From the NCBI RefSeq assembly GCF_025147325.1, contig NZ_CP102262.1, forward strand, positions 2,108,001 to 2,172,000: 64,000 bases of DNA, read 5' to 3'. Position numbers and translations under genes: made by a program. This document shows positions 1,374 to 61,145 of this stretch, piece by piece. Source of the stretch: Bacteroides stercoris ATCC 43183. GTDB taxonomy: Bacteria; Bacteroidota; Bacteroidia; Bacteroidales; Bacteroidaceae. The stretch's first letter is position 1. The number at the start of each line of letters is the position of its first letter. The notes under the pieces are model-generated. The model ran no database searches. It was not told the DNA's origin and saw nothing but the letters and a program-made list of their open reading frames with translations.

Positions 1374-1658
1374 TTACTTCCTTTTGATCAGTCCGTTTTC
1401 CAGTATCTCCTGAATATCCGTTTCCCGGTAGAAGAATTTTCCCCCTACGTTCGAGTGGGGGATTAGCCCGTTGTCACGGTAATTTTGCAGGCATCGTTTC
1501 GATATGCCCAAAGCCAGACATACGTCCTGCGCATCCATTCACTTGTCCGACGCAGGCGGTGCAATCTTTTTCTGGAAGTCACTCATTTGTACGGCCAGCG
1601 TGCTGACCAGTTTTCTCAACTCCTGATACGCGCTTGTTTCAATAATCGTCAGTTCCAT
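1374..1658 (-). CDS. Second helix-turn-helix excisionase-like protein, with in-frame TGA
   Basis: From ATG at 1658 the frame reads MELTIIETSAYQELRKLV, stops at TGA (1541-1539) after PPASDK, then continues in frame as MDAQDVCLALGISKRCLQNY and a wing GGKFFYRETDIQEIL to TAA at 1374. Related HTH proteins in Bacteroidales usually read W(L/M)DNQDVC here, so the TGA sits at the usual Trp. If TGA stops translation, the product is a 39-residue peptide without the DNA-binding domain. If it is read through, the protein is 94 aa. The shared-operator motif lies 88-103 bp upstream of the ATG. A standard pipeline would call it a pseudogene or annotate only the second half. Confidence 0.75.
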
Positions 1659-1690
1659 ACTAAAATTCTTTTTAAGTTTCTGAATATGAG

Positions 1691-55756: not shown

Positions 55757-58700
55757 CAAACGACAACATTTGGCGGACAACATAGCCGCACTTGAATGGA
55801 TATTCATGCGCCCGGAGTTTTGTCTCACGGAAGAGGGACGCAAGGTTTTGAACGGTTATTCGGGTTTCGGGGGATTGAAATGCATCCTGAATCCGGCGGA
55901 AAAGGACACGGACATTGAAAGATGAACGACAGACAGGGAACTGTTTCCCCAAGTCCGACTGCTGCATGAACTGTTGCGTGAGTATTCCAAAGACGAAAAA
56001 GAATACAAGGCATACGTCCAAAGCCTCAAAAACTCCTCTCTCACAGCCTTTTACACACCGGAACCGGTGGTAACGGCCATGCAGGAATCCTTGCAGCTAC
56101 CGGGAATCCGTCCGGGACGTTTTCTTGACCCTTCTGCCGGAACGGGCATGTTTATCAGTGGCTTAAAGGATGTATCCGAAGTCCATTGTTTCGAGAAAGA
56201 CAAGCTCACGGGAAAAATCCTCTCATCCCTCTATCCGGAAAGCAGAGTGACCATAGACGGTTTCCAGTCCATACAGCCCTATTATAATAACTACTTCGAT
56301 ATGGTTTCATCCAATATACCGTTTGGAAATACCAGAGTTTATGACCGGGATTTTGACCGGAGCGAAGACGTCGTGCGTAAATCCTCACTTGCTGCCGTAC
56401 ATAACTATTTCTTTCTCAAAGGTATGGATACGTTACACGAAGGCGGGATACTGGCCTATATCACGACTTCGGGCGTCATGGACTCGCCACAGAACCGTCC
56501 CGTCAGGGAATGGCTGGTGAACCATGCCAATCTTGTTTCAGCCATACGTCTGCCGGACAATCTGTTTACCGATGCAGGTACGGAAGTGGGCAGCGACCTG
56601 ATCGTATTGCAGAAGAATACCCGAAAATTGGAACTGACCGAAAAGGAGCGGAGCTTTATCGAGACCCGCATCATATCCGGCGGTATCCATATCAACAACA
56701 GCTATGCCGATTTAGACCATATCGTCCATACTTCCGTATCTATGGGCAAAAACATGTACGGACAACCGGCCATGAATTTTATTCATGAAGGAGGTGTCGG
56801 CGCCATTTCCGAACATCTCAGGCAGTTATTGGCACAAGATGTGGAGAACCATCTTGACCGGAAACTTTATGATGACAATCTATCCCGCTCAAACAATTCC
56901 ACCATCCTCAAAACGGAGTTTGAGACACTATTGGAAACAGCAGGAGAGGCAGAACGGCAGGAGGTACAGGAAAAAAGCCCCGCACAGTCCTATGAACCCA
57001 TGCTCAACCTGTTTGCCGCCTATGCGGATGAAGAGCAAGCGGAGGTGCAAGTCGTAGAAAGCAGACCTTCACCAAGCCGGGCACCGTCGGTATCCCGCAA
57101 AAAGAAAGGGAATGAACCGGAAATGTTCAATCTTTTCTCCCAAGAGAACATGTACGATGAAGCCGCCACGCAGGAAGACCTGACCGGGGAACGGGCGGCA
57201 GCGGAAGCAAAATGGCAGGAGCGCAGACAAAAATTCGAGGAAGAGCGGAAGAAAGAAATGGAACCACGACCGTTTACCGGAGAGATACGTCCCGAATACA
57301 AGAACGGCTCCATCGTGAAATCGGGTGAGCAATACGGATATTTAAGGGGGGTGGGTACTCCCGAAGCACAATTCCATCCGCTTAAACTGACAGTCACCCA
57401 ACAATACCGGGCCGCCTACTATATCCCGCTCCGTGAAGCCTACCACAATCTCTACAATAAGGAAGCCGAAACGGAAACCGAACAGCCGGAACTACGGGAA
57501 GAACTGGTCAAGCGGTATGACAGTTTTTACCGCATGTTCAGGGAATTGAACGGAAAGGACAATGCCAAGTTCCTGTTGATGGATGCCGGAGGACGGGAAA
57601 TACTGTCATTGGAACGTTCCGTTAACGGCAAGATACAGAAGGCGGATATCTTTTCTGTTCCCGTATCGTTCAACGCCAATGAAGTGACACATGTGGATAC
57701 ACCGCAGGAAGCGCTTGCGGCATCCCTGAACAAGTTCGGGGAGGTCAATCTGGAATATATGGAAAATCTCAGTGAAACAGGCAGGCAGGAACTGCTCACA
57801 CAACTGGAAAACCGTATCTTCTACAATCCTATGATGAAGAACTATGAAATCAAGGACCGTTTCATAGCGGGCAATGTAGTGGCCAAAGTCGAATGGATAG
57901 AGAACTACCTGAAAGACTATCCCGATGACGACGCAAGCAAGAAATCATTGGAAGCCTTGCAGAAAGCCATACCGGAGCCGATCAGTTTCGAACTGCTTGA
58001 TTTTAATCTGGGAGAAAGGTGGATACCCGTATCCGTATATGAAGAGTTTGCCGGTTATCTTTTTGAGGCAAAAGCCCATATCCACTATACGGAATCCATC
58101 GACGAGTTCAGTGTGAGTTTTGAAGAAACGAACGCGAACATCACCGACAGATATTATGTGAAAGGGGAAAAAAGAGGTTATTACGGAAACGACCTGCTGA
58201 AACATGCGCTGCACAACACCGTCCCCGACATAACCAAGACCGTTCAGGACAAGGAGGGCAATGACATAAAGGTACGTGACGCGGAGGCCATCCAGCTTGC
58301 CGACACCAAAATCAACGAGATACGCTCCGCCTTCACCGGCTGGCTGAACGAGCAGCTGCCCGAGTTCAAGCAGAACCTTGCGGACATGTACAACCGCAAG
58401 TTCAACTGCTATGTACGTCCCGATTACGACGGCTCCCTACAGAGTTTCCCGTTCCTTGACCTGAAAGGACTGGGCATACCGTCCCTGTACGACAGCCAGA
58501 AGAATGCCGTATGGATGCTGAAGATGAACGGCGGCGGTATAATCGACCATCAGGTAGGTACCGGCAAAACCCTTATCATGTGCATAGCCGCCTTTGAAAT
58601 GAAACGACTCGGACTGGCGAACAAGCCGATGATTATCGGACTCAAAAGCAATGTGCATGACATAGCCGACACGTTCAAGAGAGCCTATCCGAACGCCAGA

Positions 58701-61145
58701 GTGCTGTATCCGGGCAAGGAGGACTTTACACCGGAGAAACGTGTCGGAATATTCCATGACATCAAAAATAATAACTGGGACTGTATCATCCTGACACACG
58801 ACCAGTTCGGAAAAATACCCCAATCTCCCGAAATACAGCAGGAAATATATACGCAGGAAATAGACAGCATCGAAGAAAATCTCGCAGTATTCGAGCAGCA
58901 GGGCAATGAAGTGAGCGGCTGGATAAAGAAGGGGCTGGAAAAAAGAAAGGAAAACCTTGAGGCCAAACTTGAAAAGCTGGAACAGGATATAAAAGACCGG
59001 ACGGATGACGTGACCGATTTCAGGCAAATGGGCATTGACCACCTCTTCGTTGACGAATCGCACAACTTCAAGAACTTGATGTTCAATACACGCCATGCAA
59101 GAGTTTCCGGTCTGGGAAACCCCGAAGGAAGCATGAAGGCCATGAACATGCTTTTCGCCATCCGTACCATACAGGAGCGTACAGGGAGGGATTTGGGGGC
59201 CACTTTCCTGTCCGGTACGACCATCTCCAACAGCCTGACGGAACTCTATCTCCTTTTCAAATATCTCCGTCCGAAGGAAATGGAGCGGCAGGGGATCACC
59301 TGTTTTGACGGCTGGGCGGCCGTCTATGCGAAGAAAAGCACGGACTTTGAATTTTCCGTGACCAACCAGGTCGTGCAGAAAGAGCGTTTCCGCTATTTTA
59401 TCAAAGTGCCGGAACTCGCCAATTTCTATGCGGAGATAACCGATTACAAAACGGCCGAGGACGTAGGGGTTGACAGGCCGGAACTCAACGAGCAACTCTA
59501 TCACATACCGCCCACTCCCCAACAGGAGATTTTCATTCAGAAACTGATAAAGTTCGCTGAAACCGGGGATGCGGCCTACATAGACAGAGAACCTTTGTCC
59601 AAGGCGGAAGAAAAGGCACAGATGCTGATCGCCACCAACTACTCGAACAAGATGTCGCTTGACATGCGGCTGATAGACCCTGAATACGGCGACAGTCCGG
59701 GAAACAAGGCGTCCCATTGCGCGGCCAAGATTGCGGAATATTACTATAAATATCTCGACCAGAAAGGCACACAGTTCATTTTTTCAGACTTGAGTACCTA
59801 TAAACCCGACCAGTGGAACATCTACAGTGAGATAAGGCGCAAACTCGTGGAAGACCATAATATTCCGGAAAAGCAGATAAAGTTCATTCAGGAAGCAAAC
59901 AGCGACAACGCACGCAAGGAACTGTTCAGGGACATGAACTCGGGCCGCATCCGTTTTCTTTTCGGTTCCACACAGAAACTGGGTACGGGTGTCAACGCAC
60001 AGGAACGGGCCGTGGCCATCCATCATCTGGACATACCCTGAAGGCCGTCCGACCTGGAGCAGCGCAACGGACGTGCGGTGAGAAAAGGCAATATCATCGC
60101 CAAGCAGTACGCCGGCAACAAGGTGGACTGCTATATCTATGCGGTGGAGAAGTCACTGGACAGCTACAAGTTCAACCTGCTGCAAAACAAGCAGGTGTTC
60201 ATCAACCAGCTCAAAAGCCGCAATCTGGCCACCCGTACCATTGACGAGGGGGCGATTGACGAAAACGGAGGCGGCAGTTTCAGCGAATACGTGGCCATCC
60301 TTTCAGGCAACGACGACCTGCTGGAAAAGGCGAAGCTGGACAAGAAACTGGCGGTCCTCGAAAGCGAGAGGCAGGCATTCCACCGTAACAAGGGAAACGC
60401 GAAAGGCAAGCTGAATGAAAGGACTTCGGGAATAGAAAAAAACAATGCCTTTACCGGGCGTTTCACCAGGGACTGGGAATATTTCAACAAGGTGGCCCCC
60501 GCAGATGCGAAAACCGGACTCCGTCCCAATCCCCTGAAACTGGACGGTGTGGACTCGGACAATATCGAGGTACTCGGCAACCGGCTTGCCGCAATCAACC
60601 GGAATGCCCGGACGGAGGATGACTATATGAAAATCGGTACTCTGTTCGATTTCCGTATCCTTGTCCGTACCGAAAGGATCTGTGAGGGGGACATGCAGGC
60701 TTTGCAGAACAAATTCATGGTCGAGGGGCTGGACGGCATCAAATATACCTACAACAACGGTTATATTGCCAAAGACCCGAAACTGGCCGTCATGAACTTT
60801 ATCAATGCGCTGGAACGCATTCCCGCCATGATAGAGAAACGGGAGAAGGAGAACGCGGAGCTGTCGAAGGACATCCCGGTCCTTCAGGAGATTGTGGCGG
60901 CCTCATGGCCCAAGGATGCGGAAATCAAACGTCTGAATGAAGAGCTTGCCACACTGAACCGGAAAATACAGCTTACCCTTAAACCGGCAGGCGGGCATGA
61001 AAGCGGAACGGATGACGGACCGGAGATGAAAGGAGAGAAAGCGACAGGCGAAAGTGACGATACACCGGACCTGCCACGGAAGGCAAGGCATGTACCCTCA
61101 ATGGAAATTGTCGCCCCGACAAACGGGCTGAAAAAAATATCCTAA
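55746..61145 (+). CDS. Giant DNA methylase-SNF2 helicase, with two in-frame TGA codons
   Basis: From ATG 55746: MAYNKRQHLADNIAALEWIF..YSGFGGLKCILNP, TGA at 55923-55925 in DTDIER*TTDRELFPQVRLL (relatives read HWSKSDLELFP here). Then an N6-type methyltransferase with FLDPSAGTGMF and SSNIPFGN, a linker with KNGSIVKSGEQYGYLRG, and a SNF2-like helicase with DHQVGTGKT and FVDESHNFKN. TGA at 60039-60041 follows HHLDIP and precedes RPSDLEQRNGRAVRKGN, where SNF2-type motif VI has DIPWRPSDLEQR. 1,799 aa with read-through. Possibly an anti-restriction or DNA-processing factor for the incoming strand. Termination at the second TGA would remove helicase motif VI. Confidence 0.9.

Follow-up and report, generated by a model that had tools for sequence, protein, structure and literature searches.

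The 64,000-nucleotide stretch of the Bacteroides stercoris ATCC 43183 genome studied here (contig NZ_CP102262.1; below, the window) holds what is, from its gene content, a CTnDOT-like integrative conjugative element (ICE). Seventeen in-frame TGA codons lie within genes of this element, and comparison with related elements firmly supports the conservation of their positions. We propose that a programmed, leaky readthrough of UGA as tryptophan (Trp) throttles the excision and transfer genes of this ICE family, an explanation that we consider moderately probable. What we infer beyond the conserved positions concerns the identity of the decoder, the efficiency and regulation of readthrough, the throttle function and the effect on transfer.

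An original prediction, made from the letters of the window alone, listed 17 in-frame TGA codons. All 17 are present, 11 in genes on the minus strand and six in genes on the plus strand, and each frame, when read through its TGA, is open to the end of the gene as claimed. The codons lie in 13 genes, not the twelve that were counted, and the motif HWSKSD quoted for the helicase is absent at both helicase sites, the first of which reads IER-TGA-TTD and the second DIP-TGA-RPSDLEQR. On the minus strand the genes encode a small protein (1374..1658, TGA at 1541), which, following that prediction, we take to be a putative helix-turn-helix protein; two DUF6047-family proteins (1845..2948, TGA at 2630; 2960..3853, TGA at 3679); TraM (32976..34244, TGA at 33395; Pfam Transposon_TraM matches the C-terminal piece); a protein that we presume from gene order to be TraK (34505..35128, TGA at 35023); a small tra-operon protein (36835..37242, TGA at 37113); the 5' exon of the TraG ATPase (40144..42168, TGAs at 42000 and 41358; Pfam P-loop_TraG); a radical-SAM-like protein with phage relatives (43080..44057, TGA at 43541; weak Pfam Radical_SAM match, E=0.03); and a ParA-like protein that we presume to be TraA (45549..46319, TGAs at 46229 and 46025; weak AAA_31 match). 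The plus-strand genes encode a MobA-like protein, named by position (47002..47436, TGA at 47176), the MobB relaxase (47435..48760, TGA at 47531; NCBIfam Bacteroid_MobB), the MobC coupling protein (48792..50813, TGAs at 48930 and 49080; NCBIfam Bacteroid_MobC) and a DNA methylase/helicase (55746..61145, TGAs at 55923 and 60039).

All 12 UGA-bearing genes whose true end was read terminate in TAA (nine) or TAG (three), a count that leaves out traG, which is split by a group II intron. We do not rely on an avoidance of TGA terminators in these genes; it is weak, because the host flanks use TGA at only 7 of 55 stops. TGA serves as the terminator of the kinase gene, of the genes at 25061-26077, 61256-61585 and 61582-61887 and of a doubtful open reading frame (ORF) at 24441-25028. 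Internal TGA is absent from the integrase, RteC, ParB and cargo genes. Twelve of the 16 conserved TGAs sit within the first 40% of their gene, and the modules touched by the conserved codons are excision, DNA processing, secretion and the methylase/helicase.

We compared the window with seven related loci, from P. vulgatus ATCC 8482, B. faecalis, B. propionicigenes, B. xylanisolvens XB1A, P. sartorii, B. timonensis and B. nordii, which align to the tra region in blocks of about 77-93% DNA identity (68% in one intron block). The search for the same pattern in related elements had been proposed with the original prediction, and the pattern is there: at the 12 tra-region sites, 58 of 68 codons are TGA, eight are TGG and two are others. 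The five sites outside the tra region, in the left-end genes and the helicase, are all TGA in P. vulgatus ATCC 8482 at protein identities of 49-92% (49% for the gene with 1541, 72% for that with 2630 and 76% for that with 3679). In total, TGA occurs in one or more other species at 16 of the 17 sites. The codons at 35023, 37113 and 42000 are TGA in all seven relatives, and the small protein bearing 37113 is itself present in all seven, with two other loci matching at 29% identity or less. The codon at 41358 is TGA in the window only and TGG in all seven relatives. Conversely, the relatives carry additional TGAs in TraO, TraI, TraF and MobB where the window has TGG.

The conservation extends to deeper relatives. 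MobC searches identified a colinear element in another Bacteroidales family (G542) that has seven TGA positions in common with the window at protein identities of 29-70%. The common columns are in TraG (42000), TraA, MobA (47176), MobB (47531), MobC (48930), a DUF6047 protein (3679, at 30% identity) and the helicase (55923). G542 has 12 TGAs in the compared genes, seven on TGA columns of the window, two on Trp columns and three elsewhere; seven of the nine on Trp-or-TGA columns are thus on TGA columns (P=1.7e-5). It also has one TAG, in the DUF4099 gene, and one TAA in its MobC match, outside the aligned part. A second element from the same family as G542 (G764) has 14 TGAs and neither TAA nor TAG in the compared genes; two of its TGAs are on TGA columns, four on Trp columns and eight elsewhere or in gaps, and the sites at 35023 and 42000 are among those that it retains. 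This codon comparison was made without the integrase, helix-turn-helix and first DUF6047 rows and without the second G542 locus.

Same-site TGA across species rules out simple decay and sequencing error, and it likewise excludes the two alternatives offered with the original prediction, a biased G>A process and a consensus error. The base composition around the codons had given some reason to consider a strand- or context-biased process, since A follows 12 of the 17 TGAs, as had been noted. However, TGA recurs at these sites in other species and at protein identities of 30-70%, and the trimmed aligned core of the eight elements contains no internal TAA or TAG. The trimming removed 39 leading codons from TraM, 25 from TraE and 20 from the radical-SAM gene as likely non-coding; before it, TAA occurred in relatives at six codons in TraM, three in TraE and four in the radical-SAM gene, with two further TGAs in TraM. 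These family-locus stops off the TGA and Trp columns are at TraM codons 15, 24 and 35, at TraE codons 13-21 and, as TAA, early in the radical-SAM gene. In nine genes, the raw ratio of amino-acid to silent differences is 0.17-0.54 past the first TGA and 0.07-0.66 ahead of it, and this comparison shows that coding constraint persists downstream of the UGAs. A conserved stop followed by conserved coding sequence is what programmed readthrough would be expected to leave. Pseudogene decay, a biased G>A process or a consensus error is therefore refuted by these results, its chance being practically nil, unless the related records have one common source of error.

Control loci provided a measure of the background. 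The 222,327 aligned codons of 84 other tra loci include two internal TGAs, five TAAs and one TAG, and several of these stops fall ahead of the likely gene start; the seven family loci have 5-12 TGAs each. The TGA pattern exceeds chance, because the same sites are TGA in other species while the 84 control loci lack the pattern. In a TraG tree of 90 rows the eight TGA members form one group with a support of 100, and three other TraG copies in the same B. stercoris genome have no internal stop within the matched part. Loci L082-L099 are left out of the control, the tree, the residue counts from outside homologues given below and the comparison of family-specific genes. Samples of genomes were searched with TraG, MobC and tRNA-Trp. 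No family member was seen in viral contigs (TraG scan) or in plasmids and phages (near-match scans with other parts).

The positions also appear to be under selection. We took columns in which all members (at least five) encode the same residue. The conserved Trp columns (n=59) are all TGG in 45 cases, all TGA in nine and mixed in five, while A and G are mixed in 139 of 278 Lys columns, 141 of 281 Glu columns and 61 of 148 Gln columns, together 341 of 707 (P=2e-10 against Trp, a value that ignores kinship and serves as a guide only). Two of the 11 columns in which the window has TGA are mixed (P=0.04). Since Trp columns rarely mix TGA and TGG while Lys, Glu and Gln columns often mix A and G, the TGA positions look selected, frozen rather than freely exchanging.

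The claim that UGA is read as Trp was upheld in part. The original prediction also had the decoding vary with host or state, which it may do, and gate transfer, which is plausible. The conserved coding frames, the interchange of TGA and TGG within the family and the presence of Trp at many sites speak for it, but homologues outside the family mostly have another residue at seven sites (33395, 41358, 46025, 46229, 47176, 47531 and 48930), which argues against Trp at every site. Direct comparison supports Trp at nine of the 17 sites. At 43541 in the radical-SAM gene, Trp is found in all 120 homologues listed, and at 42000 in 80 of 84 non-TGA homologues. Trp is the majority residue outside the family at 35023 (35 of 62) and 49080 (25 of 37), and it occurs in all four listed proteins that span 60039. 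At three sites TGG appears in related elements despite non-Trp residues outside: 41358 (TGG in 7/7 relatives, Tyr prevailing outside), 48930 (TGG in one of four relatives, Ile prevailing outside) and 46025, where support is thin (TGG in G542 but mostly Ala elsewhere). Support is also thin at 1541 (1/1). For 2630, 3679, 37113 and 55923 there are too few outside homologues for a residue call. The counts termed 'near' among the outside-homologue residues repeat some loci through overlapping stretches. Among the best 120 of 7991 database matches to the helicase, all start past the first UGA; 78 stop one residue short of the second TGA, 38 stop before that and four read on.

The seven sites with mostly other residues outside the family would also fit a reading of UGA as selenocysteine or another non-Trp residue. 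This is extremely unlikely, given Trp in 120 of 120 homologues at 43541 and the exchange of TGA and TGG within the family. None of the six Rfam matches in the window is a selenocysteine insertion sequence (SECIS), although no search aimed at SECIS was made.

A tRNA-Trp with anticodon UCA, which the original prediction suggested looking for, was found neither in the host nor around the elements, nor by Rfam and ARAGORN scans. The host tRNA scan scored 150 of 195 first-look candidates and gave 63 hits, of which 55 were read, none with anticodon UCA; the other eight score like Ile/Ala pairs. The host has two identical tRNA-Trp genes with anticodon CCA and a 5-bp anticodon stem. The seven other element hosts have two tRNA-Trp(CCA) genes each, 13 of the 14 being 100% and one 97% identical to the B. 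stercoris copy. Five elements were examined together with their surroundings: the window with 80 kb on its flanks, 140 kb around the P. vulgatus element, 120 kb around the B. propionicigenes element, 140 kb of G542 and 60 kb of G764 (the G764 element may extend beyond this stretch). The only tRNA genes found there are those for Thr, Ser and Pro. An element-encoded suppressor tRNA was sought with ARAGORN, also at lowered thresholds and allowing introns, with Rfam, by BLAST with the host tRNA-Trp and by a scan for UCA anticodon arms; nothing convincing emerged, and the lowered ARAGORN thresholds gave noise only. Two other candidate decoders were rejected. An extra host tRNA-Trp was set aside because two copies (93% identity or more) are listed for at least 18 of 31 genomes of the genus, that of the window among them. 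The radical-SAM protein was not found in the stretches of the two deep relatives and occurs on phage contigs.

Judging by the base that follows UGA, leaky reading that competes with release factor 2 (RF2) is more likely than a dedicated suppressor. The base following TGA (n=43) is A in 28 cases, C in 10, G in five and T in none, and that following TGG (n=142) is A in 35, C in 36, G in 42 and T in 29. TGA is thus enriched in a following A (28/43 versus 35/142, P=1.8e-6) and depleted in a following T (0/43 versus 29/142, P=2e-4), a leaky stop context of the kind seen in programmed readthrough. The two deep elements alone have A after 16 of 26 TGAs and 23 of 99 TGGs (P=3e-4). The 20 host TGA stops are followed by A in seven cases, T in five, G in five and C in three. 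In E. coli, tRNA-Trp misreads UGA with particular ease when the next base is A, while a C there also makes for a weak stop and a U reduces readthrough (as cited in PMC5289835); UGA readthrough in E. coli has been attributed to the near-cognate Trp and Cys tRNAs (PMC5373646). Given the next-base bias, the failure to find a UCA tRNA and these published observations, leaky decoding by the ordinary tRNA fits better than full reassignment.

Full reassignment in a different native host, with the Bacteroides copies as visitors, has a slim chance. It would account for the encoding of the same residue by UGA and UGG. However, the present hosts use TGA as a normal stop, at 20 of 85 mechanically called ORFs in stretches of three host genomes, and in the flanking ORFs of the deep hosts TGA is an ordinary stop at 9 of 18 (G542) and 4 of 12 (G764). 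In addition, the positions are frozen, and the frames are open in the window and in stretches of seven other species.

In the leaky readthrough that we propose, UGA is fixed at particular positions in the excision, relaxase, coupling-protein, type IV secretion system (T4SS) and helicase genes. The ordinary tRNA-Trp(CCA) would read these UGAs as Trp in competition with RF2, and each UGA would act as a leaky translational throttle. Full-length transfer proteins would then be made at a low level, set by the codon context, RF2, charged tRNA-Trp and the number of UGAs per gene. The integrase, the rte-like regulators and the cargo carry no internal UGA.

Several observations weigh against this proposal. 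The products of genes with two UGAs (TraG, TraA, MobC and the helicase) would be made very rarely if readthrough did not exceed a few per cent. G764, the deepest relative, has only six of its 14 TGAs on Trp or TGA columns. The M48 peptidase gene (29910-30821) is an exception to the pattern, three relatives having TGA followed by T where the window has TCC. Around the TGAs there is no clear drop in synonymous change and hence no sign of an additional RNA signal; a downstream RNA signal was rejected as a component for this reason. The next-base counts are not independent, as positions common to the window and G542 were counted twice, and their TGG sets differ, that of the window coming from UGA-bearing genes only and those of the deep elements from all compared genes. 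The preference for A may also be partly mutational, because A follows five of the six sites with Trp outside the family (1541, 35023, 42000, 43541, 49080 and 60039) and only three of the seven without a Trp majority.

Alternatively, recoding could be inducible, a tentative possibility in which UGA decoding is enhanced by a factor from the element or a partner and the transfer genes stay silent until this factor is made. Candidate factors are an unusual tRNA-Trp, an RF2 inhibitor or a tRNA-modifying enzyme. The restriction of UGAs to transfer and excision genes, with none in the integrase or the rte-like regulators, would suit such a switch, as would the TGA terminators of the kinase gene and three small genes, the proposed recoding of late genes in phages (PMC9523058) and the existence of family-specific genes of unassigned role. 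The presence of only Thr, Ser and Pro tRNA genes around the five elements argues against it, however, as does the failure to find the radical-SAM gene in the stretch of either deep relative, and the next-base bias suggests that RF2 still competes. A more elaborate idea, rather unlikely in our view, is that conjugation is wired to the UGA-decoding state of the cell. Excision, DNA processing, the T4SS and the methylase/helicase would all depend on the reading of one or more UGAs as Trp, and together they would form an AND-gate. The gate would open only if RF2 is limiting, if Trp-tRNA is plentiful or if a UGA-reading tRNA is supplied in large amounts by a partner, for instance a UGA-recoding phage; the ICE would thereby leave a cell in which translation has been captured.

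The remaining gene content of the window is that of a CTnDOT-like ICE in a host genome of 4.0 Mb in a single contig. The set comprises an integrase, RteC-like and two-component regulators, ParB, tra genes, MobB, MobC and the large DNA methylase/helicase. Pfam and NCBIfam profiles matched the TraM, TraJ, TraO, TraQ, TraG, MobB and MobC families; the TraL match is under its cut-off and the C-terminal piece of TraK has no Pfam match. Both a tyrosine integrase and an RteC-type regulator, as found in this group of elements, are present: the recombinase is near the left end (101..1006, plus strand; Pfam Phage_integrase, E=1.4e-15) and the RteC-like protein is at 4917..5552 on the minus strand (Pfam RteC, E=3.4e-11). 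A sigma-54 response regulator and a hybrid histidine kinase (5738..9416, minus strand) are, from their position, presumably RteB/RteA-like. A polysaccharide-utilisation locus (9543-24143; GH97, GH31, melibiase-like, SusD and others) lies inside the ICE as cargo, followed by a ParB-like protein (26626..28692, plus strand; Pfam ParB_N). Two small genes adjoin the helicase (61256..61887, minus strand), one with a sub-threshold HTH_17 match; neither has an internal TGA, and both products would be lengthened under efficient UGA readthrough. At the element ends, the only att-like repeat seen is a single 13-base one, likely due to chance. Proteins on 19 viral contigs are 37-79% identical to the radical-SAM-like protein, which has 5479 database matches.

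The group II intron that splits traG (37745..40143, minus strand; Rfam Intron_gpII and group-II-D1D4-7) encodes a maturase (Pfam RVT_1/GIIM). A 2.4-kb copy on a P. vulgatus plasmid is 99.9% identical to it, whereas identity to the P. vulgatus ATCC 8482 element is about 89% for the element around the intron. This difference makes a recent move of the intron probable. P. vulgatus ATCC 8482 itself carries one intron within the aligned stretch and another close by. The related element there spans about 2.712-2.8185 Mb (about 106 kb), with one end near a tRNA-Ser and the other at the left-end genes, and the 61-62.3 kb region is present as two long copies and one short copy. PvCTn of P. vulgatus, of about 75 kb at ppdK (PMC11005914), is apparently a different element.

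If our proposal is correct, the genetic code itself is the means by which a family of mobile elements in the gut controls horizontal transfer. Gene finders would cut the UGA-bearing genes into fragments, as the database matches to the helicase illustrate. With this system, the strength of UGA decoding as Trp in Bacteroidales would become open to test, as would the ability of a mobile element to exploit partial recoding when it has no suppressor tRNA.

Stop-codon recoding has been described in phages, and frameshifting in a single ICE activator. Among the matches listed from an open-access library, which leaves most subscription papers outside, none reports UGA readthrough in conjugative elements or conserved use of UGA for Trp across an ICE transfer system. 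CTnDOT-type ICEs of Bacteroides have similar tra, mob, rteC and integrase genes, but the 84 other tra loci lack the internal-TGA pattern. Leaky UGA readthrough by tRNA-Trp has been studied at single sites, and the ICE family presents a conserved set across a transfer system. The preferences described for leaky readthrough by normal tRNA-Trp, in the residue inserted and in a following A, match those of the family (PMC5289835). A tRNA-Trp(CCA) with a 4-bp anticodon stem similarly reads UGA as Trp without a UCA anticodon (PMC13092985); in contrast, both B. stercoris tRNA-Trp genes fold with a normal 5-bp stem. Gut phages that recode TAG to Gln or TGA to Trp are alike in using a stop as a sense codon in costly genes in standard-code hosts (PMC9523058). 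The ICE family has conserved in-frame stops at sense positions as these phages do, but the phages are predicted to bring suppressor tRNAs (PMC9523058) and none was found encoded by the elements. It also differs in being an ICE in which the UGAs are few and frozen and most Trp remains UGG. In ICEMlSymR7A, a programmed +1 frameshift in FseA likewise limits ICE activation by translational recoding (PMC10359603). There, a frameshift acts on one activator gene, whereas in the ICE family described here UGA readthrough would act on many transfer genes.

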